From NCBI GenBank assembly GCA_013306675.1, contig JABLUY010000001.1, positions 466,334 through 530,333 of the forward strand: 64,000 nucleotides of DNA, written 5' to 3'. The first letter of the stretch is position 1. Each line of letters starts with the position of its first letter. The notes beneath the pieces were generated by a model. The model saw only the letters and a list, made by a program, of their open reading frames with translations. It was not told the origin of the DNA and searched no databases. This stretch comes from Thraustochytrium sp. TN22. Taxonomy: Eukaryota; Sar; Bigyra; Thraustochytrida; Thraustochytriidae. The translations under genes were made by a program, and so were the position numbers. This document shows, piece after piece, positions 30,418 through 47,972 of this stretch.

Positions 30418-30644
30418 GCTCGCGCGCGCCTGCCCGCGCCGCGTGGACGCCGCGAATCGGGGCTGGACGCCGGCCGGCGACGGCGACGAACTTGAGCACC
30501 AACGGCGCCTTGGCCCAGGATACCAGGCGGTACCAGGACCGCGACGACGAGCAGAACCAGAGCCAGAACCAGGACCGGGGCCAGGGCCAGGGGGACCAGC
30601 GGCGGCACGGCGCGGCGCGCGGCGCGAGGGAGGCGGAGGCGGCC
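30418..30644. promoter_or_regulatory. Short bidirectional promoter region
   Basis: 227 bases between the methyltransferase start (leftward) and the LCCL gene 1 start (rightward). The LCCL frame is open through part of it but has no ATG. No TATA-like box is obvious. Confidence 0.5.
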
Positions 30645-32447
30645 ATGGCGGACTCCACGCGGCTGCTGACCAAGGCGGAGTCCACGCCGCTGCTGGACGC
30701 GGAAGACGGGGACCCGGACGCGGAGGCCGGCGGCGCCTGGGACGCGGCCGAGCGCGGCGAGGGCCAGGGCCAGGGCCAGGGCCAGGGAGAGGGAGAGGGT
30801 GAGGGAGAGGGAGAGGGAGGGGCAGCCGAGCGCGAGCGGGCGGCGTCCGTGCTCGGCGACGAGTTCGTCTTCGCGTGCGGGTGTCGCGGCGAGGACGGGC
30901 AGGGCAGGGGACGCCAGGGTTGCGCCGGCTGCTGCGTGTGCTCCAAGCAGCAGGTGTGCTGCCTGAACCTGCGGCCCGCGCCGCTGCCCAAGCTGCGCGA
31001 CGGGTTCTGGGGCACCGAGGCGCTACGGCGCGTGCAATGCGGGGGCGAGAAGCTGCGCGCCGTGTACGGCCCGTGGCTGCTGGCGCTCTTCAGCGTGGCG
31101 GCGCTGGGCGGCTTCTTTGCGATCGCGTACTTTGACTTCATGGGCATGACGTCGGACCGGCCCATGCCAATCGGGTGCACCATGTCGATGCAGACGACGC
31201 AGGCCTCGTACACGAGCACGCCGCTCTCCGAGACCTGCGGCGGCGGCCCGTGCCTCGGGTCCACCATGGAGGGCTGGGTCACCATGAGGTGTCCGGACCA
31301 CTGCCTTGTAGACTGGTCGCAGCCTGTGTACGGGTCGAACCCGTACAAGTCGACGAGCCGGACATGCGCCTCTGCTATCCACGCGGGCGCCATGGACGCG
31401 CGCACCGGCGGCTGCTTCGAGGTCCAGATGATTGGCGTCGTGGCCAACTTCGCGGGCTCCGACGAGCACGGCGTGGACTCGCGCTCCTACGCGGTGCCCA
31501 GCAGCGCCTACATGGTGCGCGAGAGCCCGAACCGCAACTGCAACTCTCTGCGGCCCTGGATGGACGCCTACATCTTCTTTGTCATGGCCATCCTCTTTCT
31601 CGTGATACGGCCCAACGCCTGGTACATGCTGGTGGCGCTCGTGGTGGCGGGCTACTTTTACCTCGTCACCGAGTACCGCTACTATTCCGACTTTGCGCAG
31701 GTCCTCAACACGCGCTCCACGCGTCTGCTGGAGCTCCTGCTCATGGCCTTTTTCCTCTGGCACATGGCGGTGCGCGTCACCTTGCCGGACCCGCGCACGC
31801 ACCCGATCGACGGCCTTGTCTTTTACTTTTTGCCCTACTGGCTCGGCGTCCACATGGACGTCTTCTCCTACATGGGTCTGGACCTTTCCTTCTCCAAGGG
31901 CGGCCTGGTCAACGTCGGCGCCGTCATTGGCCTTGGACTCATGGTGCTCATTGGAATGCCGCTCGTCGTGCTGCAGCTTCTGCTCTTCTACCGCGCTGGC
32001 ATGATGCTCAAGGTCCTCTTGTACGTGTGCACCACGGCCGGCATCGTCATGATCGTCACGTTGGCCGTCCATGACTACCTCACGATCCACCTGCACCACT
32101 TCATGTTCGGCGGCCTGGCAGTACTCATTTTCCAGGGTCAGCCGCGTCTCCGCTACTCCATCGTCCTGCAGGCCGCCATGCTCGGCGTGCTGGTCAACGG
32201 CGTCACCGTCTGGGACATCGCGCCGCTCTACGACGCGCAGAGCGACTCTGTCAGTGGCACGGTCAGCACCACCTTGGGTGCCGCGCCCCCGCCGGTTCTC
32301 GACACAAACGCAACCAGCTCCAATACTACCGCGGCCATGACGCAGGTCGCCGCTGCGGCGGCACACGGCATCCGTGCCCAGGTACTCGACCTCCTTGCCT
32401 CCGCGGCTAGTCCGAGTCAGCCGCCGCTTGCCAGTGGCGGCGAGTGA
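30645..32447 (+). CDS. LCCL-domain multi-pass membrane protein, copy 1
   Basis: 600 residues from the ATG at 30645 (ggccATGG). Residues 1-60 are acidic with a gqgqgq/geg repeat (ggccag units near 30762-30790). A conserved cytosolic Cys motif follows (GDEFVFACGC, CCVCSKQQVCCLNL). TM1 is at ~140-162. The LCCL domain at ~175-290 carries RCPDHCLVDWSQPVYGS, TSRTCASAIHAGAMD and GGCFEVQMIG. About seven or eight membrane helices follow from ~305, including HLHHFMFGGLAVLIFQGQPR and GVLVNGVTVW, which recall the HH and GLxxNG motifs of fungal LCCL membrane proteins. The function of that family is poorly known. It is about half identical by eye to the next gene, so they are tandem paralogs. Confidence 0.88.
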   Translation: MADSTRLLTKAESTPLLDAEDGDPDAEAGGAWDAAERGEGQGQGQGQGEGEGEGEGEGGAAERERAASVLGDEFVFACGCRGEDGQGRGRQGCAGCCVCSKQQVCCLNLRPAPLPKLRDGFWGTEALRRVQCGGEKLRAVYGPWLLALFSVAALGGFFAIAYFDFMGMTSDRPMPIGCTMSMQTTQASYTSTPLSETCGGGPCLGSTMEGWVTMRCPDHCLVDWSQPVYGSNPYKSTSRTCASAIHAGAMDARTGGCFEVQMIGVVANFAGSDEHGVDSRSYAVPSSAYMVRESPNRNCNSLRPWMDAYIFFVMAILFLVIRPNAWYMLVALVVAGYFYLVTEYRYYSDFAQVLNTRSTRLLELLLMAFFLWHMAVRVTLPDPRTHPIDGLVFYFLPYWLGVHMDVFSYMGLDLSFSKGGLVNVGAVIGLGLMVLIGMPLVVLQLLLFYRAGMMLKVLLYVCTTAGIVMIVTLAVHDYLTIHLHHFMFGGLAVLIFQGQPRLRYSIVLQAAMLGVLVNGVTVWDIAPLYDAQSDSVSGTVSTTLGAAPPPVLDTNATSSNTTAAMTQVAAAAAHGIRAQVLDLLASAASPSQPPLASGGE

Positions 32448-33386: not shown

Positions 33387-35858
33387 ATGCCGATGCGGCA
33401 GGGGGGCAGGGGCAGGCTCCTGCAGCGCGCCTCGTCGAGGCCGCAGGGCGGGGAACTGTCCGGGTCGTCGATGGCGTCGACGCAGGCAGCGAGCTCGGAC
33501 GATGGCGAGGCGGACGCCGACGCCGTGCTGCAGGTGCTGCACGGGGCGTCCAACGAGGACCAGGATGAGCTCGAGGCGCAGAAGCGCCAGGCCGCCGAGT
33601 GCACGCAGAGCAAGCACCGGCGACGCAGGCGACGACCTGGACTCGGGCTCGGTGACGAGTTCGTACCTGGCTGCGGCTGCGACGACGGCAGGGCGTCCTT
33701 TTGCGTGTGCTCGCGCACGCAGGCGCTCTGCCTGGACCTGAGCAAGCAGCCGCTGCCCAAGCTGCAGGACGGGCTCTGGGGCACGGACTGGCTCGTGCGG
33801 CGCGCATCGTGCAAAGAGAACTTTCGCGCGCGCTTCGGGCCGTGGCTGCTTGGTCTGCTCAGTGTCGCGCTCCTGGGCGGCTTCTTTGGCATTGCGTGGT
33901 GGGACTACATGGGCATGTCCTCGGACAGGCCCACGCCCGTGGGCTGCACGGCGCAGTACTGGTCCAACTCGACGACGCTGGACTCGACCTGCGGCGTCGG
34001 CGGCCGTGACTGCCGGCCGCTCGACACGGACGGCAACTGGTTCACCGTGCGCTGCCCTGACCACTGTCTGGTCGACTACGCCGCGCCCGTCTACGGTACC
34101 GACGTGTACACGGCGACGAGCCGCATCTGCGCGGCCGCGGTGCACGCGGGCGTCATGGACGCAGTCAGTGGCGGCTGCTTCGACCTGCGCCTGACGGGCC
34201 CACAGACAGACTTTGCGCCGACCTCGCGCAACGGCGTGGACTCCCAGTCGTTCAATGGCTGGTTCCCGCGCACCTTCGAGGTGCGCGCCGTGGACAACGC
34301 GAGCTGCAACGCGCTGCGTCCGTGGATGGATGCCTACATCTTCGTCGCCATGGCCGTGCTCTTCGTGCTCGTGCGGCCCTCGCCCTGGTATATGCTCTTG
34401 GCGCTCGTTGTGGCCGGCTACCTGTACCTGGTGACTGAGTACCGGTACTACTCTAGCTTTGTGCAGGTACTCAACGCGCGCTCGCCGCGCCTGCTCACGC
34501 TCGTGCTCTTCGCCTATGTGCTCTGGCACCAGGCCGTGCGCGAGACGCTGCCGGACCCGGCGCGCTTCCCGCTGGACGGCCTGGTGCTCTACTTTCTTCC
34601 CTTCTGGATCGGTGTGCACCTCGACATGTTCGAGAACGTCGGCATCACCACCTCCCTCACGAACGGCGGCCTGGCGAGCGCCGGCGCCATCCTCGGCATC
34701 GCCCTCATCATCGGCATTGGCGTACCGCTCCTCGTGCTGCAGTGCGCGCTCTTCTACCGCGCCAGGATGCTGCCTCGCGTGCTGCTCAACGTCACCCTCA
34801 CTTTGGTCATTGTCATTGTCGTCACGGCCGCGGTCAACGACGAGCTCTCGCTGCACGTGCATCACTTTATGGTGGGCGGGCTGGGCGTCCTCCTTTTCCA
34901 GGGCCAGCCGCGGCTGCGCTACTCAATCATGCTGCAGGCGGCCTTGCTAGGTGTCCTCGTCAACGGCGTCACCGTGTGGAACATCGACACGCTCTACGAC
35001 GTGGTCACGCCGAGCTCCACCACCGTGGAAGTGGTCTACTGGACCGGGATCAACCGCACTGGCACGCGGCTTGACTTGTCCTGGGCGCTTGCTTCCACCG
35101 TTGTCAACGACTGGGGATGCGACCAGGAGGGCCTGGACGACTTTTACGCCGCGTACGCAGACGCCGTCCTGGGCGCCCAGACTAGCAGCGTGTACTACGA
35201 GGCCGTGGACACGCCCGCACCGTCGGCGGTGCCGACAAGCTCGGCCACGCTCCTTGGGCGAAGCGCGCTCACCGCCGCACCGACCTCAACGCCGAGTGCA
35301 GCGCCGAGCATGGCGCCAAGCGCCGCATCGACCAGGGCTCCTACCGGGACGCCCACGACGTGGTGGAACGCCTTCGGTGGGGGCTCCCCTTTTGCCGGGG
35401 CCTCCCCCTCGTCCTCGCCCCGGTCCACCACGGTCAGTGGGATCTTCACAGACGCGGGCGCCGAGGGCGGCGCCGCAGGCGCAAGTGTGGGCGGGGGCCG
35501 CCGCCGGCTGGCTGTGGCGGCGCCCTCACTCATCCCGGGCGACAACCAGCCCCTCTTCCGGATGGCCATCAACTCGGTTATCTTTTTGGACGAATACTTC
35601 GAGGCGGGCCAGTCCGTCTACTACGCCAGCGTGGACCTGGACGTGCCGGGCTCGCACTTTTATCTCACAGTCGGCAACGATGGCAGCCTCTCGCAGACGC
35701 TGCCGTATCTGATGCCTCCGGACGCGGCGAGTGATAATGAGACGCAGGTCGGTGCCGGAATCTACAACACGAGCTTCGTCACGCCGGGCAACCACTGCGA
35801 ACATGTATATGCGCTCGTCCTCTTCGAGAATGGCGACCTTCCCTCGAACGGATTTTGA
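33387..35858 (+). CDS. LCCL-domain multi-pass membrane protein, copy 2 with a C-terminal ectodomain
   Basis: 823 residues from the ATG at 33387. It has the same layout as copy 1: cytosolic GDEFVPGCGC and FCVCSRTQALCLDL, TM1 at ~150-175, an LCCL domain at ~185-305 (RCPDHCLVDYAAPVYGTDVY, SRICAAAVHAGVMD, GGCFDLRLTG), then the polytopic region with HVHHFMVGGLGVLLFQGQPR and GVLVNGVTVW, ending at ~535. It differs by an extra ~290 residues after the last helix: a Cys-poor stretch, a Pro/Ser/Thr stalk (PSAAPSMAPSAAS), then a globular part with FRMAINSVIFLDEYFEAGQS and N-glycosylation sequons. The extra domain is unrecognised. The paralogs probably arose by tandem duplication, with later gain or loss of this tail. 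Confidence 0.88.
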   Translation: MPMRQGGRGRLLQRASSRPQGGELSGSSMASTQAASSDDGEADADAVLQVLHGASNEDQDELEAQKRQAAECTQSKHRRRRRRPGLGLGDEFVPGCGCDDGRASFCVCSRTQALCLDLSKQPLPKLQDGLWGTDWLVRRASCKENFRARFGPWLLGLLSVALLGGFFGIAWWDYMGMSSDRPTPVGCTAQYWSNSTTLDSTCGVGGRDCRPLDTDGNWFTVRCPDHCLVDYAAPVYGTDVYTATSRICAAAVHAGVMDAVSGGCFDLRLTGPQTDFAPTSRNGVDSQSFNGWFPRTFEVRAVDNASCNALRPWMDAYIFVAMAVLFVLVRPSPWYMLLALVVAGYLYLVTEYRYYSSFVQVLNARSPRLLTLVLFAYVLWHQAVRETLPDPARFPLDGLVLYFLPFWIGVHLDMFENVGITTSLTNGGLASAGAILGIALIIGIGVPLLVLQCALFYRARMLPRVLLNVTLTLVIVIVVTAAVNDELSLHVHHFMVGGLGVLLFQGQPRLRYSIMLQAALLGVLVNGVTVWNIDTLYDVVTPSSTTVEVVYWTGINRTGTRLDLSWALASTVVNDWGCDQEGLDDFYAAYADAVLGAQTSSVYYEAVDTPAPSAVPTSSATLLGRSALTAAPTSTPSAAPSMAPSAASTRAPTGTPTTWWNAFGGGSPFAGASPSSSPRSTTVSGIFTDAGAEGGAAGASVGGGRRRLAVAAPSLIPGDNQPLFRMAINSVIFLDEYFEAGQSVYYASVDLDVPGSHFYLTVGNDGSLSQTLPYLMPPDAASDNETQVGAGIYNTSFVTPGNHCEHVYALVLFENGDLPSNGF

Positions 35859-40393: not shown

Positions 40394-41206
40394 CTACTGA
40401 GCGGGCTGCGGCTGCTGCTGCTGGGCCTGCTGGCGGGCCTGCTCTCGCTTGAGCGCTTGGATCTCCTCGATGCGGGCGGAGGTCTCAGCGAGCTCTTGAC
40501 AGGTGCGATCGATCTCTTGTGAGACGAACTTTTGTGCGGCGACAATCTCGCGCATGCTCTCGACCTCGGAAATGGTGGTGAAGCATGCGCGGATCTCCTC
40601 GGGAGAGACGTTCTTGCGCGCCGTGGCCATGTCGTGCTGCGTGAGCAGCTGGTAGAGCGATTCCTCGGGCTCGTGGAAGATGATCTCCTCGTAGTTCTCG
40701 GAGACGACGGGCTTCTTCTTGAGCGTGGCAATGTTGGCCGCAGAGCTGCCAGCCGGGTAAAGGCGCAAGAAGTGCATGAGGTCGACGGAGGTCTCATTGG
40801 CGTCGTTAAAGACGACAACGACCTTGGCCGTGAACTCGCCCCAGCCGCGCTGCTTGGTGAAGTAGGGCGGCTTGTGGCAGGTGACCAGCGGCTCGCTGCA
40901 GCTCTGGTGCAGCACAAAGTCCACGCGCTTGATCAGGTAACTCAGGTCCTCATCCTCCAGCCCGCGCACGTAGATCCACCACTCGTGCGTCGCATTCTCC
41001 GTGCTCTGCTTGCCCAGGAAGAAGGCCACGGACCCGACCACGATGGGCCGCACGACCGTGCGCCCGGCGCCGACGGCGTTTGCCGCCGCCACGGCGCCGC
41101 TGCCGTTGCCGCTACCGGCGGCGCCAGCGGCCACGCCGACCCCCGCGCCGCTCCCCGTGCCGGACCCCGCGCTGCTCGCGCCGCCCGCGCCGCCCTCGGC
41201 GGGCAT
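40394..41206 (-). CDS. YEATS-domain protein (Yaf9/GAS41-like)
   Basis: 270 residues from the ATG at 41206; a second ATG at 41305 is possible, and the frame above that lacks an ATG. A Gly/Ser/Ala N-terminus leads into the YEATS domain at ~49-150: RPIVVGSVAFFLGK, THEWWIYVRGLEDEDLSYLI, VDFVLHQSCSEPLVTCHKPP, then QRGWGEFTAKVVVVF. His, Ser and the Trp of GWGEF form the acyl-lysine pocket in this family. A C-terminal coiled coil (~220-260) with a Gln-rich end is typical of Yaf9/GAS41, which it uses to join the SWR1/TIP60-NuA4 chromatin complexes. The likely role is reading acetyl- or crotonyl-lysine on histone H3. Confidence 0.93.
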   Translation of the reverse strand: MPAEGGAGGASSAGSGTGSGAGVGVAAGAAGSGNGSGAVAAANAVGAGRTVVRPIVVGSVAFFLGKQSTENATHEWWIYVRGLEDEDLSYLIKRVDFVLHQSCSEPLVTCHKPPYFTKQRGWGEFTAKVVVVFNDANETSVDLMHFLRLYPAGSSAANIATLKKKPVVSENYEEIIFHEPEESLYQLLTQHDMATARKNVSPEEIRACFTTISEVESMREIVAAQKFVSQEIDRTCQELAETSARIEEIQALKREQARQQAQQQQPQPAQ

Positions 41207-41436: not shown

Positions 41437-44400
41437 TCACTGCATCTTCCGCAGGAGAGCCTCGTACTGCTCCTTGGACGAGACGTAGCGAGGATGGTCC
41501 TCACTGAACTTGACCTTGCGGATGGCGTTACAGCGCTCGAGCGCCTCCTTGGCCTCGTCGAGGCGATCGCATTCCTCGAGGACAGCGGCCAGCTCCTGCA
41601 GGCCGGTGGCGAAGAAAGGGTGGTCATCAGGAAGCGAGGCGTCCCAGGCGGCGATCGCCTCTTTGAGAAGGCGTTCACTGAGTGCAAGCTGTTGGCGCTT
41701 GTGCGCAAGCATACCGCGGCTGTAGAGCACCTGGCCGTAGGTTGGGTGCGTGTCGCCGAGGAACTTGGCCTTGATATCGGCGGCAATGATGAAGGTCTCG
41801 TCAGCAGAGTCGAGGTCGTCCAGTTGAAGCTTGAAGCGAGCGAGGCCCATGTACGTGTCAGAGGCGTCGATGTGGTGCTTCCCGAGGCGCTGCTCACGAA
41901 TGGAGAGGGCGCGAAGGTAGAGCGACTCGTTGAAGGCCGGATCTGGTTCCACACCCTCCTGAGCAGCCTTGTCAGGCCACATATGCACCATGCGCATGAG
42001 CTCCGCGTAGCGGTCGCATACGATGGCGACCGCAATGCTGGAAGGCCCGAACATCGTCTCGGCGTCCTCAAGCGCTGACTTGAAGGTGGCCTGTGACTCC
42101 GCGTACCTGCCGAGATGGACGAACATGAAAGCGAACTCGGTCATGCCTCGTACGAGCGCGGCGTTCTCGCCGGCAGCCCGGAGCTGTGGGAGGCCGGTGC
42201 GATAGAGCGCCTCGGCCTCGACGTACTGTGAATCGAGGTTGAGCACGTTGGCGAGCTCCACCATGAGGATCGCACGGGGCGCCTGCGTCTGGCCGTCATC
42301 GGGCAGGAGGTCGAGTGCCTTCCGCAGGACCGAGGACGCGAATGTGTACTTGCCCATCTCCTTGGTGAGACGCGCGATCGCCTCGAGCTGCGGCACGGTA
42401 AGAACCTGGCCCTGGATGACGGCTTCGTAGCTCGAGACCGCCTCGTCGATCCCGCCGAGCACGTCACGCCACACCTCGATTGCCTCATGCAAGAGGCTTG
42501 TGCAGGCAACCTGAACAAAGGCCGGATCGAGCATGAGCTCTCGAAGGCGGCCCACCATCCCGGCCCTGGGCATGTGATGCAAGAGCATGCGGACCTTGCG
42601 CACGTTGAAGGCGTCCGTGCCGGCGAGTGTCAGCGCATGGGTCTCGACGTATCGCGCCTTGCCAACGTCGGTGAAGCCTGCGTCGTCAAAGTAATTGGCA
42701 ATGCTGCGGTGCAGGTGCTCGTTCTCCTCCTCCGAAAGCCCGCCCTCGATGAATCGATGCTGGACAAGCTCACCGATGGTCCGATGGAACCACGCGAGAA
42801 CCCCCGTGCCGTGGTCGCCAGCGCGGGTGACGATGAGGCCCGGGAACTCCTCAAGGAGCTGGGTCAGAACGAGGGGCGGCATGCGGCGGATAGGCGGCCT
42901 CCAGAACTCGAAAACCGTATCGAGAAGGTCGTCGTCGAGCGATAGAATGTCCTCCAGCTCGCGCTGCGTGACACCGCCGATGGAGGCCGTGAGGATGCCA
43001 AGGGCACGCGAGACGAGCTTTGCGCCCCGCCTGCGCTCCACTCTTTCGACGTGGGCCATGAAGACTTCCTCAATGGTGCCACCGAGGGAGATTTCAGACG
43101 CCTCGTCGAAGGAGCGCCACCTGCGTGCCGTGTTGCAGCAGAGGATGAGAAAGAGGGCCGGCTGGCCAACGCAGCGCGTGATGAGCAGGTCGGCCTGCTC
43201 GCGGGAGACCTGTCGCCTAAAGACGGCGAGCCAGCTGGCGAGGAGGGTCTCCACGTCCCCTCGTGAAAGCGTCTCGACTTGTTCGAAGTGGTCGGATGGC
43301 ACGGCGTCTTGGAGCGTCTTGAGACAGTTGACTCCGGCACCTTCAGAGAGAACGGACACCAGGACGCGGACGCCGCCGGGGAGCGCCTGCGGGAGCCAAG
43401 AGAGGCTGTCTCGGGCATTGTCCTGGTTTTCGAGCTGGTCCAGGGCGTCAAGGATGATGATGAGCGGGCCGTCGAGGGTGGTCGCGGCGACGTTGACGAG
43501 CTCTGCAAAGCGCTGCGTGAGCTCGGAAAGGGTTGTGGCGGAGCGCATGCTGTCTGTGACGCCGCTGGCCTTGAGGATGGCCTCCAGTTGGTCGGCGAGG
43601 CTCGTGAGGAGCGCGACGGGCGTCGAGGACTGCGGTGTTGTACCGAGGAAGCGCTGCATGACAACTGCGCTGCCGTCAGCGAGCTCTTGCGCCTCCTTGG
43701 TGAGGCGCGCCATGAGACTCGTCTTGCCGGACCCGCCATCGCCAAAGACGACGAAGGGCACGGCCAGGTCGTCAGACGTGGCGGTCTGTAGGTAGGCGAG
43801 GGCGCCATTGTAGGCGGCTTCGTTGGCTGCGAGCGGCGCGAAGGACATGGACCGGGACGTAGCGTAGGTGCTATGGGAAGAGACCTCGTGCAGCAAGGCA
43901 GCGTCGACACCGTCGCCGGCGCGTGGGTGCTTCTGGCGTGCGTGGCGAATGGAGCTCACCATGGCCTCGCAAAAGTGGTCGCAAATACCCTTCAGGTAGT
44001 CGACGTGCTTCTTGGAGGCGAGCGAAATGCCATCCCGAGTGAGCACAAGCTCGTAACGCTTCATGCGGAAGTCGGAGACGAGTGTTACGACCTCGTGATG
44101 CACCCTGCCGAAGACTCGGTCGGCGCCCTCCATGGCGTCAACGTTGGGGTCGTCAACGAACTTGCGCAGAACCTCGTCAGGAATCTGGCTGCTCCCGAAG
44201 TTGGTGATGTGGCGCCGGAAGACCATGACGGCGTCGGGGCGCTCGGCCTTGTCGACTTGGAGGATGCCATGCACAATCTCGTCCTCGGTCATGGACAAAA
44301 AGTAGTTCTGCAGCGCTTCGCCCTGCAATGTGACGCGCGCGCCCCGGCGCAGAGCTTCGCGCAGGGCATCCTCTGAGGAAGCGGATCCACCTTCCTGGGC

Positions 44401-45003
44401 CGTGCCCAGGATGTAAGCAGGCGGGACGGCGTTGAGGTCCTCGCGGAAGAAGCGAAAAATGAGTTCGCGCTCGTCCTCGCTCACGGCCCCGGCGATCCCG
44501 AGGAGCTCCTGGCTCTCGATCGCGACAGGGATGCGCTCAAAGCCAATTTTGTCGCCGCTGAAGAGGACGAAGGAGATCCCGGCCGACTCGCGGTGACAGC
44601 GCTCCACTTCGAAGATGCACACCTCGGCGGTATCGTGCGACGCGGCCATCTCTGCCGTGATACCCCAGCGCAGATCTACCGGCGTGATGAATTCGCACTC
44701 GAGCACTGCCGCGAACTCGCGCAGGTACTGGTAGGTGTCCATCATGAGAAGGTTGCGCTCGTACTCGAAGTCCGTGAAGGTCGACGAGATGAAGGAGAAG
44801 ATCTTGGGCCGCGGCACGAAGTCCGCGCCGCTGCGCAGCACGCTCTGCAGGAAGTCGGCGCTTGCTTTCGGCACCTCCTCCAGCTCCTCGCGCGCGCTCT
44901 GCAGCGTGTTCTTCCATCGCGCCCGCTCCTGCCGCGGCACCCCCTTCCACAGATCCTCCAGGTTCTTGGGCTCCCTATGACGTCCGAAGAGGGAGGAGAG
45001 CAT
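41437..45003 (-). CDS. STAND NTPase with DUF4062 and TPRs (nephrocystin-3-like)
   Basis: 1188 residues from the ATG at 45003. Residues ~65-165 are a DUF4062 domain: KIFSFISSTFTDFEYERNLL, then ITPVDLRWGITAEM, the N-terminal signature shared by NPHP3, TEP1 and NWD1. The P-loop NTPase spans ~395-700, with Walker A GDGGSGKTS at 421-429 and Walker B PLIIILDALDQLEN at ~513-526. A winged-helix-like region follows, with TQRELEDILSLDDDLLD. From ~880 to 1188 come kinesin-light-chain-type TPRs (YTFASSVLRKALDLLPDDG, YAESQATFKSALEDAETMFG, DEAKEALERCNAIRKVKFSE). STAND proteins are nucleotide-gated signalling switches that oligomerise on ligand binding; their output here is unknown. It sits 848 bases downstream of a TIR-domain gene on the same strand, which may be its partner. 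Confidence 0.9.
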   Translation of the reverse strand: MLSSLFGRHREPKNLEDLWKGVPRQERARWKNTLQSAREELEEVPKASADFLQSVLRSGADFVPRPKIFSFISSTFTDFEYERNLLMMDTYQYLREFAAVLECEFITPVDLRWGITAEMAASHDTAEVCIFEVERCHRESAGISFVLFSGDKIGFERIPVAIESQELLGIAGAVSEDERELIFRFFREDLNAVPPAYILGTAQEGGSASSEDALREALRRGARVTLQGEALQNYFLSMTEDEIVHGILQVDKAERPDAVMVFRRHITNFGSSQIPDEVLRKFVDDPNVDAMEGADRVFGRVHHEVVTLVSDFRMKRYELVLTRDGISLASKKHVDYLKGICDHFCEAMVSSIRHARQKHPRAGDGVDAALLHEVSSHSTYATSRSMSFAPLAANEAAYNGALAYLQTATSDDLAVPFVVFGDGGSGKTSLMARLTKEAQELADGSAVVMQRFLGTTPQSSTPVALLTSLADQLEAILKASGVTDSMRSATTLSELTQRFAELVNVAATTLDGPLIIILDALDQLENQDNARDSLSWLPQALPGGVRVLVSVLSEGAGVNCLKTLQDAVPSDHFEQVETLSRGDVETLLASWLAVFRRQVSREQADLLITRCVGQPALFLILCCNTARRWRSFDEASEISLGGTIEEVFMAHVERVERRRGAKLVSRALGILTASIGGVTQRELEDILSLDDDLLDTVFEFWRPPIRRMPPLVLTQLLEEFPGLIVTRAGDHGTGVLAWFHRTIGELVQHRFIEGGLSEEENEHLHRSIANYFDDAGFTDVGKARYVETHALTLAGTDAFNVRKVRMLLHHMPRAGMVGRLRELMLDPAFVQVACTSLLHEAIEVWRDVLGGIDEAVSSYEAVIQGQVLTVPQLEAIARLTKEMGKYTFASSVLRKALDLLPDDGQTQAPRAILMVELANVLNLDSQYVEAEALYRTGLPQLRAAGENAALVRGMTEFAFMFVHLGRYAESQATFKSALEDAETMFGPSSIAVAIVCDRYAELMRMVHMWPDKAAQEGVEPDPAFNESLYLRALSIREQRLGKHHIDASDTYMGLARFKLQLDDLDSADETFIIAADIKAKFLGDTHPTYGQVLYSRGMLAHKRQQLALSERLLKEAIAAWDASLPDDHPFFATGLQELAAVLEECDRLDEAKEALERCNAIRKVKFSEDHPRYVSSKEQYEALLRKMQ

Positions 45004-45851: not shown

Positions 45852-47972
45852 CTACATGAGGTAACAGGCATTGCCGGCGCCAGGCGTGCGGGTGGCGCGG
45901 CGCCCCACCGAGACGCGCATGCCTTGCGAGAGGCGGCGCGAGAGGCTCTTGCGCTCCGGCTTGACGTCGGCCAGCATGGTGGTGGCAAAATGGTCCTGGA
46001 TGTCGCGGTGCATCTTGCGCACGCATAGGCTAAAGACGGCGTCGTAAATGGGCATGGCGTTGGCGCTGCGCACTCGGTCGAGGCCGTCGGGCAGCATGGC
46101 CATTTCGGCGCCGATGTCCACGCCCTCGCGGAAGACCGGGAGGATGAGCATGTCCGGGATGGCGACAGCCATCTTGAGCTCCTCGTAGCACCAGTCGGCG
46201 CGGCCGGCCTCGGCGTTGGCACGCATGAGGGCGGCCGAGGAGAGCTTGGTACCCTCGCCCTCCGCAGTGGAGGGCGCGACGGTGAGCAGCGGCATGATCA
46301 CACGCGAGCGACTGACGGCGCGCTGCAGCTGCGCGCGAAAGTCACCGGCGCCGAGGCCGTGGGAGTCGCTCACGTCCAGAAAGACGAGGTACCCGAGCTT
46401 CTCAAGGTAGAGGCGCAGGCGGTCGGCGAACTCGACCTGAGAGCGGCGGTAGGAGATGAAGATGTCGTGGTCGTAGGTCTTGTCGTGGGGCATGCGAAGC
46501 AACATGTCTTGCGGCAGCGCGCGGCCCTCGGCGACGTCGTTGCCGGCGTCGTGGTCGTCGAGCTCGGGCGCGCGAGGCGCGTGGCTGGTGTCGGTGCGAC
46601 TGGGCTTGGCGAGCCCGAGACGGCCCATGGTGGCCATGAGGTCGCGCACCTGCGCGAGCATCTCGGCGTCGGAGCCGGAGAAGAGCGCGCCGGGCTGGGT
46701 GGCGAAGATGTCGCTGAGCGAAGGGTCCGCACCGTTGCTCGATGCCTTGCCCTGGACGCCGACGCTGAAGAGCAGGCGCGCCTCGAGGCCGGACGGTAGC
46801 GTGAGCACGGCCGCCAGGGTGTGCGAGCGCACCTGGTCTTGGTGGATGCTCTCCACGGCGAAGGACACGGCTGCTGTGCCCCCCATCCAGAGCAAGCTGG
46901 CCTCAGGCGCGCCGCACGCAAAGTACCCAGTCGGCACCTCGAGGCGAACTGGGTACGCCTGCTGGCGCTCCAAGAGCAGGGGGCCGAACATGCCCACGCG
47001 GACGGGCGATGCTGGGCCCGACGAAGCGTACAGGTTGGTGTCCGGGTCCACGTAGGCCATGATGGTGACAATGAAGGTCTCTTGCGGTACAACGGCGTGG
47101 CGTGGCCCATAGGCGCCCAGGTACGCCGAGTCCACAGTAGGCTGTTCCAGCATCTTTTGCACCGCGGGCTGCACATGCACCTGGCGCTGGGGCGTGGCGG
47201 AGGCGGAGGCGGCGGATGTGGCGCCCCCCGCGGTCAATTCGGGCTCTGCGCCTGGGCCGCCGCGCAGGCGCAAGACTAGGTGGGCGTCGACAATGTCGCC
47301 GCGCGCATCCCTTTGCACGAGCTCACCATCCTGGACCTGGCGTCCAGCCACGATAACGCGCTGCTGGTCCGGCGGAATACCCTCGCGGTCATAAACCGCC
47401 TCCTTGGCGTCGCCCCACGTCATGCCCTCCTCGACCGACATGGCGATGGTCTTGCCGGTCAGGGTGCGGATTGCCAGAGTGGCCGGCTCGGCGGCCTTCT
47501 TCTTCTTCATCGTCTTCTTTTTCTTGTTGCTGGACTTGGTTGTCAGCCCCATCGCCCCGAGCACCATCGCCCCAGGCATGAAGGTATCCATCTTGTTGCT
47601 GGACTTGCTTGTCAGCACCATCGCCCCGGGCATGAAGGTATCCTCGTCGTTGACCTCGTCGTCCTCTACAGAGTCGCCGACCTCCGCGTTGCCGTCCTCC
47701 GCCTCCTCCTCCTCCTCCTCCTCCTCCTCCTCCTCCGCGGTGACGGCCTGGACCTCGAACATGGCGGGAAAATCGAAGAGCTCCCCGATGGTGCCCTGCG
47801 CGTCAAGCTCCACGCGGCGCCCGCCAACGCGGAAGGCCACCACCTGCACCGCCGCCAGCTCCGCGTACACTAGCTGCAGCACATCCTCCACGCTGAAGGT
47901 AGGGTCCACGTCCAGCGTCAGCACCGCCTCCTCGCGCTCGCCGCGCCCGGGCACCACGACCAGCAGCAGCAT
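45852..47972 (-). CDS. Ubl-ubiquitin-beta domain-TIR fusion with a C-terminal CaaX box
   Basis: 706 residues from the ATG at 47972. Residues 1-77 are a beta-grasp, Ddi1-like Ubl (LTLDVDPTFSVEDVLQLVY). A Glu run (79-92) and a duplicated segment containing DTFMPGAMVL (111-149) follow, then a Lys run. Residues 164-239 are a diverged ubiquitin: TLAIRTLTGKTIAMSVEEGM, GIPPDQQRVIVAGRQVQDGE, ending LRLRGG with more protein after it. Residues ~290-408 form a beta-rich domain like those preceding TIR in some bacterial proteins (from memory). The TIR domain is at ~500-665: YDHDIFISYRR, then DWCYEEL with Glu598 at the position of the NAD-cleaving glutamate. The tail is basic and ends CYLM, a CaaX prenylation motif. 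A membrane-bound NADase or scaffold signalling protein is inferred. The LRGG could be a deubiquitinase cleavage site. Confidence 0.88.
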   Translation of the reverse strand: MLLLVVVPGRGEREEAVLTLDVDPTFSVEDVLQLVYAELAAVQVVAFRVGGRRVELDAQGTIGELFDFPAMFEVQAVTAEEEEEEEEEEEAEDGNAEVGDSVEDDEVNDEDTFMPGAMVLTSKSSNKMDTFMPGAMVLGAMGLTTKSSNKKKKTMKKKKAAEPATLAIRTLTGKTIAMSVEEGMTWGDAKEAVYDREGIPPDQQRVIVAGRQVQDGELVQRDARGDIVDAHLVLRLRGGPGAEPELTAGGATSAASASATPQRQVHVQPAVQKMLEQPTVDSAYLGAYGPRHAVVPQETFIVTIMAYVDPDTNLYASSGPASPVRVGMFGPLLLERQQAYPVRLEVPTGYFACGAPEASLLWMGGTAAVSFAVESIHQDQVRSHTLAAVLTLPSGLEARLLFSVGVQGKASSNGADPSLSDIFATQPGALFSGSDAEMLAQVRDLMATMGRLGLAKPSRTDTSHAPRAPELDDHDAGNDVAEGRALPQDMLLRMPHDKTYDHDIFISYRRSQVEFADRLRLYLEKLGYLVFLDVSDSHGLGAGDFRAQLQRAVSRSRVIMPLLTVAPSTAEGEGTKLSSAALMRANAEAGRADWCYEELKMAVAIPDMLILPVFREGVDIGAEMAMLPDGLDRVRSANAMPIYDAVFSLCVRKMHRDIQDHFATTMLADVKPERKSLSRRLSQGMRVSVGRRATRTPGAGNACYLM
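47523..47643 (-). repeat. In-frame tandem duplication inside the Ubl-TIR gene
   Basis: Two copies of a ~52-base unit (one with a small insertion) encode the repeated DTFMPGAMVL...SKSSNK segment between the two ubiquitin-like domains. Confidence 0.85.

Follow-up and report, generated by a model that had tools for sequence, protein, structure and literature searches.

TIR-domain NADases and ubiquitin each hold a central place in immunity and cell death, but they usually meet via separate proteins. In SARM1, the TIR domain is accompanied by ARM and SAM domains, which serve NAD sensing and octamer formation. Ubiquitin, for its part, occurs in fusion precursors (the Ub-L40, Ub-S27a and FAU types), in which a second protein follows directly after ubiquitin via LRLRGG. 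The gene described here lies in a 64,000-nucleotide window of Thraustochytrium sp. TN22 (the whole stretch of DNA that was analyzed) and has features of both systems. The closest solved sequences to its TIR domain are those of the SARM1/tir-1 NADases, with which its SYRR aligns, as does, in the tir-1 rows, its glutamate; unlike SARM1, however, it carries a ubiquitin-like domain (UBL), a ubiquitin and an all-beta domain. As in the fusion precursors, more protein follows directly after LRLRGG, but the ubiquitin is internal, has only 36/76 identity, has lost its chain lysines and has a proline after the diGly.

A first-pass annotation had read this locus as one gene with two ubiquitin-type domains, an intact diGly, a TIR domain and a CYLM end. 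The sequence bears this out: a single frame of 706 amino acids (45852–47972, minus strand) encodes a UBL at the N-terminus, followed in order by a charged linker, a diverged ubiquitin that ends in LRLRGG, an all-beta domain, a TIR domain of the SARM1 type and a basic CYLM tail.

45852–47972, minus strand: entire gene, one open frame of 706 aa (frame read; Hondaea orthologue)
47733–47972, minus strand: residues 1–80, N-terminal UBL, beta-grasp fold
47484–47732, minus strand: residues 81–163, acidic run, repeat DTFMPGAMVL (twice) and lysine cluster KKTMKKK (sequence)
47256–47483, minus strand: residues 164–239, diverged ubiquitin ending LRLRGG (Pfam, PDB)
47133–47255, minus strand: residues 240–280, low-complexity linker, its first residue a proline directly after the diGly
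46737–47132, minus strand: residues 281–412, all-beta domain
46479–46736, minus strand: residues 413–498, linker (Hondaea alignment)
45978–46478, minus strand: residues 499–665, TIR domain of SARM1/tir-1 type (Pfam TIR_2; SARM1/tir-1, E 1.8e-4)
46179–46181, minus strand: codon of Glu598, predicted catalytic glutamate (alignment with tir-1 W-x-x-x-E; Hondaea orthologue and nearest paralogue)
45855–45977, minus strand: residues 666–706, basic tail with a CYLM end, a candidate CaaX box (sequence; prenyltransferase alpha repeats in the genome)

Such an arrangement provoked a question: is it truly one gene? Third-position GC ranged from 0.795 to 0.92 across eight segments of the frame, near the values of the two neighboring genes (0.815 and 0.877); the entire frame, tail included, thus behaves as coding. 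Upstream of the start codon, 27 codons without an in-frame ATG extend to a stop. A protein search with residues 250–706, in which the 8000 candidates with the most shared words were scored, returned one match (E 2.9e-124), a protein of Hondaea fermentalgiana (P0001) that shares the MLLLV start. It contains a UBL region, an acidic stretch, KKTMKKK, a ubiquitin with LRLRGG, a beta region and a TIR domain in the same order, at 52–55% identity; over residues 166–665, 265 of 507 aligned positions are identical, and the N-terminal part aligns too. The domain order sought elsewhere in the thraustochytrids on the advice of the first-pass annotation was thus found, and the gene is therefore conserved. 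The annotation had also named the possibility that the ubiquitin and TIR parts are separate genes; to judge from the sequence they are not, as they share one frame in two thraustochytrids. As far as the two sequences can tell, then, the gene encodes one conserved polypeptide.

The Hondaea record is a single chain of 820 aa, named TFIID subunit 14, with a YEATS domain at 631–709. Taken as deposited, it would be a true ubiquitin-TIR-YEATS fusion that links the TIR domain to a chromatin reader. The organization of the present locus makes this most improbable: the matching GAS41 gene is separate here, 4.8 kb downstream of the ubiquitin-TIR gene and with one gene between them, and a methionine of the Hondaea record stands directly before the stretch that matches this separate gene. 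Because GAS41 is separate here yet nearby, the record is probably the product of two neighboring genes run together in the gene model. Its name comes from the GAS41/YEATS part, so the ubiquitin-TIR protein is probably misnamed.

40433–41065 (extent of the match), minus strand: GAS41/TAF14 (YEATS) gene, orthologous to the C-terminal portion of the Hondaea protein record (69% identity, E 3.5e-98)
41437–45003, minus strand: gene with DUF4062-like, NACHT/STAND and TPR parts, NPHP3/NWD1-like (Pfam; DUF4062 at 18.7 vs. 24.7 bits, E 0.002)

The DUF4062 match in the intervening gene falls below the curated cut-off, and the first 441 residues of that gene match six further places in the genome. A preprint describes DUF4062 as a TIR-like NADase family, places it next to NACHT in human NWD1, NWD2, TEP1 and NPHP3, and gives TEP1 as the only one of these four that was active in its assay (PMC13174449). 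On this basis, the window holds a neighboring pair of genes that may both be of NADase type. Elsewhere in the window, ORFs with LCCL domains occur at 30492–32447 and 33387–35858, both on the plus strand.

We examined the TIR domain for signs of enzymatic function. It matches PF13676 (TIR_2) with 34.9 bits against a cut-off of 28, and its best solved sequences are those of SARM1/tir-1 (E 1.8e-4). The first-pass annotation had suggested a comparison of Glu598 with the catalytic glutamates of SARM1 and bacterial TIR domains. Glu598 aligns with the glutamate of WVHKEL in tir-1 (rows 8p2l and 8p2m), which is the catalytic one in tir-1/SARM1; the human SARM1 rows span only the first third of the domain and end before this position. 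The glutamate is conserved in the Hondaea protein and in the nearest paralogue (L009, described below), and SYRR is kept in all three. Foldseek returned a SARM1 row (7djt, E 3.9e-3) with a structure model in which the TIR blocks have a pLDDT of about 27–50. The SAVED-TIR profile of PADLOC matches residues 498–559 (E 1.2e-8), and a match of the TIR part to NCBIfam ThcB4 is far below its cut-off. On these alignments, the domain probably splits NAD+.

At the N-terminus, the fold match of the UBL is good, on a low-confidence structure model (the models have mean pLDDT values of 34.7 and 52.1); by sequence, a comparison of the UBL with the PDB yielded chance-level rows only. At E up to 1, the Pfam matches in the 706-aa protein are to ubiquitin and TIR_2 only. 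The KKTMKKK cluster of the linker that joins the UBL to the ubiquitin (47484–47732, minus strand) is kept in Hondaea. The same linker contains an imperfect repeat, DTFMPGAMVL...TKSSNK, that is missing in Hondaea. Could the beta-grasp domains be ordinary UBL adaptors, like those of shuttle proteins, that recruit the protein to UBA proteins or the proteasome, with the TIR domain an interaction module devoid of NADase activity? The modeled UBL fold is consistent with this, some TIR domains are scaffolds, and the Rad23 profile does find the ubiquitin part of the Hondaea protein, albeit far below its cut-off (18.1 vs. 207.3 bits). UBL adaptors, however, need no LRLRGG, and a TIR domain without activity sits poorly with a glutamate and an SYRR that the Hondaea protein and the nearest paralogue have as well. 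We regard this explanation as unlikely.

How unusual is the combination within this genome? A scan of the 37.9 Mb at E up to 1 gave 128 PF13676 matches, 114 of them over the cut-off and 14 below; these are counts of domain matches, and some are tandem copies or contain an internal stop. For PF00240, the scan at E up to 0.01 gave 34 matches. When the two lists were compared by contig and position, just one of the 34 ubiquitin matches shared a frame with a TIR match, that of the gene in the window. Twenty other TIR ORFs were fetched, and none matched a profile of the ubiquitin-linked TIR domain. A Pfam scan of eight of them found four Roc-COR-TIR (ROCO) proteins, two with LRR, along with SH3_15-TIR (2), Ank-TIR (1) and TIR alone (1). 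The nearest TIR domain in the genome (33–34% identity) belongs to a single other ORF, L009 on contig C395, an 838-aa frame with a long acidic low-complexity middle and, at its C-terminus, a TIR domain of the same type with DWCYREL; no other close relative of the TIR domain was found in the genome. The TIR loci L033, L034, L036, L037, L040, L042 and L044 serve as examples of what is a large, receptor-like repertoire.

The ubiquitin part is strongly diverged. It shares 36 of 76 residues with human ubiquitin, the Hondaea counterpart shares 38 of 76, and the two share 46 of 76 with each other (a two-residue gap in Hondaea was set per the pairwise alignment with residues 166–665). The ordinary ubiquitin genes of the genome, a five-copy polyubiquitin and two further fusions that we take to be of the ribosomal type, encode near-standard ubiquitin; the divergence is thus specific to the TIR-linked copy. 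Relative to the human protein, the substitutions K6R, K29A, K33R, K48R and K63D are present. Both thraustochytrids have other residues at positions K29, K33, K48 and K63, a point that the first-pass annotation had not noted; K6 is lost here only, and H68 is lost in Hondaea only, where it is a serine. Kept in both are K11, K27, L8, I36, I44, V70, R42, R72 and LRLRGG. The domain is internal, not N-terminal: 163 residues, including the UBL, precede it, and 467 follow the diGly.

Ubiquitin chains are commonly built on K29, K48 and K63, and the ubiquitin-fusion degradation pathway builds them on K29 and K48, both of which are absent from the TIR-linked ubiquitin. With K29, K48 and K63 gone, this ubiquitin would not easily serve as a degradation signal and would instead act as a lasting address label. 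Our preferred reading, to which we assign a probability of roughly 0.4, is accordingly a tentative one: the protein may be a TIR NADase of the SARM1 type whose ubiquitin is a docking head, fixed and non-extendable. Ubiquitin receptors would find permanent ligands, resembling mono-ubiquitin, in this ubiquitin and in the UBL; UBA, UIM and CUE proteins, proteasome shuttles and deubiquitinases are candidates. Clustering that depends on these receptors would bring TIR domains together, perhaps at a membrane via the basic tail and a candidate farnesylated Cys703, and the clustered domains might then cleave NAD+ with Glu598, by analogy with other TIR NADases activated by oligomerization. That oligomerization drives the activation of TIR NADases is stated in the above preprint (PMC13174449). 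The domain order kept in Hondaea, the proximity of the TIR domain to SARM1/tir-1 with Glu598 on the tir-1 glutamate, the retention of L8, I44 and V70, the loss of the chain lysines, the proline after the diGly, the divergence specific to this ubiquitin copy and its unique sharing of a frame with a TIR match all argue for this reading. Against it stand the replacement of His68, a member of the Ile44 face, by serine in Hondaea, and the retention of LRLRGG: docking by the Ile44 face needs no tail, yet both species have preserved the tail more fully than expected by chance.

Indeed, in each species the last eight residues of the ubiquitin are identical to those of human ubiquitin, with P values of 0.0016 and 0.0026 given the overall identity, where positions are taken as exchangeable and the two species are not independent. 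This conservation, together with the intact R42 and R72, suits a ubiquitin-fusion precursor. In such a precursor, deubiquitinases would cut after LRLRGG, releasing a free tandem UBL-ubiquitin modifier and an active beta-TIR NADase with a lipid tail. The glutamate after the diGly in Hondaea would permit this, and the five-copy polyubiquitin and the two ribosomal-type fusions are precedents in the same genome. The proline in this position of the present gene speaks against it, for proline after the diGly slows deubiquitinase cleavage, as do the internal location of the ubiquitin and its 36/76 match, in contrast to the near-identity in ordinary precursors. Ub-Pro fusions are among the designed model substrates of ubiquitin-fusion degradation (PMC3791797). 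The kept LRLRGG therefore conflicts, at the level of sequence, with the proline that follows it, and it is exactly there that the two species differ. The first-pass suggestion of control by deubiquitinase cleavage retains the intact LRLRGG in its favor, but it is weakened because proline follows here (glutamate in Hondaea). We judge a processed precursor, the main rival, to be improbable, although less so than the adaptor without enzymatic activity; both rank behind the NADase with a docking head.

The membrane-associated part of the preferred reading, a docked and clustered NADase, depends on the C-terminal tail, KPERKSLSRRLSQGMRVSVGRRATRTPGAGNACYLM, in which a basic stretch is followed by C-Y-L-M and then the stop. 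Methionine at the X position of a CaaX box fits farnesyltransferase, and tyrosine at a1 is unusual yet allowed. Contigs C153, C452 and C19 carry prenyltransferase alpha repeats (PPTA) that score over the cut-off. On the other hand, the loose CaaX pattern fits three of 350 sampled frame ends, namely the CYLM end and two others. Together with the tyrosine and the lack of such a tail in the Hondaea record, this lends some weight to the notion that the CYLM end arose by chance and that the protein is soluble, a prospect that we hold at somewhat below even odds in view of the basic stretch, the terminal methionine and the prenyltransferase repeats. Of the membrane tether proposed at first pass, the CYLM at the C-terminus stands, in one species; the Hondaea record lacks it because that record continues into GAS41. 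A CaaX box in this one species is plausible from its sequence.

A bolder version can be formulated, in which the protein would be a self-contained ubiquitin-gated NADase. The ubiquitin head would hold the TIR domain off, diGly cleavage or receptor capture would free or cluster the farnesylated TIR domain, and the UBL-ubiquitin half would become an ISG15-like tag. We think it quite unlikely that all of this applies. If true, such an enzyme would form a direct enzymatic bridge from ubiquitin processing to NAD+-depletion death.

Searches for further relatives gave little. Beyond Hondaea, no protein relative was found at E up to 0.01 among the 8000 scored candidates that shared the most words, or at E up to 1 among 615 scored candidates; in both of these searches, P0001 itself exceeded the length limits. 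Bacterial and archaeal contigs yielded 76 pattern matches and viral contigs 22, with no confirmed relative in either set, and plasmids yielded one weak TIR match (E 0.02). Among the open-licence papers listed, no title or abstract opening dealt with a ubiquitin-TIR fusion, and no open-licence paper was found that contained both 'thraustochytrid' and 'TIR domain'. We know of no description of the combination.

The gene combines known domains in a new way, and it points to the thraustochytrids as a little-studied source of TIR-based systems. The combination suggests a direct link from ubiquitin signaling to an enzyme of the cell-death type, and a single conserved chain with both parts permits a direct test of whether ubiquitin recognition or processing switches a TIR enzyme. 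Like ISG15-type tandem UBL modifiers, the protein has two beta-grasp domains of which the second ends in LRLRGG, but here an 80-residue charged linker separates them and a TIR effector is attached. With Ddi1/Ddi2 and UBQLN/Rad23 it shares an N-terminal UBL (the fold match is good, the model of low confidence), whereas a Pfam scan at E up to 1 gave neither a retroviral-protease nor a UBA domain. Finally, its TIR part resembles the bacterial TIR-SAVED (CBASS) and Thoeris TIR effectors, as reflected in the match to the SAVED-TIR profile (E 1.2e-8); that match, however, spans only the TIR part of the profile, and the partner domains of those effectors leave no Pfam sign here.
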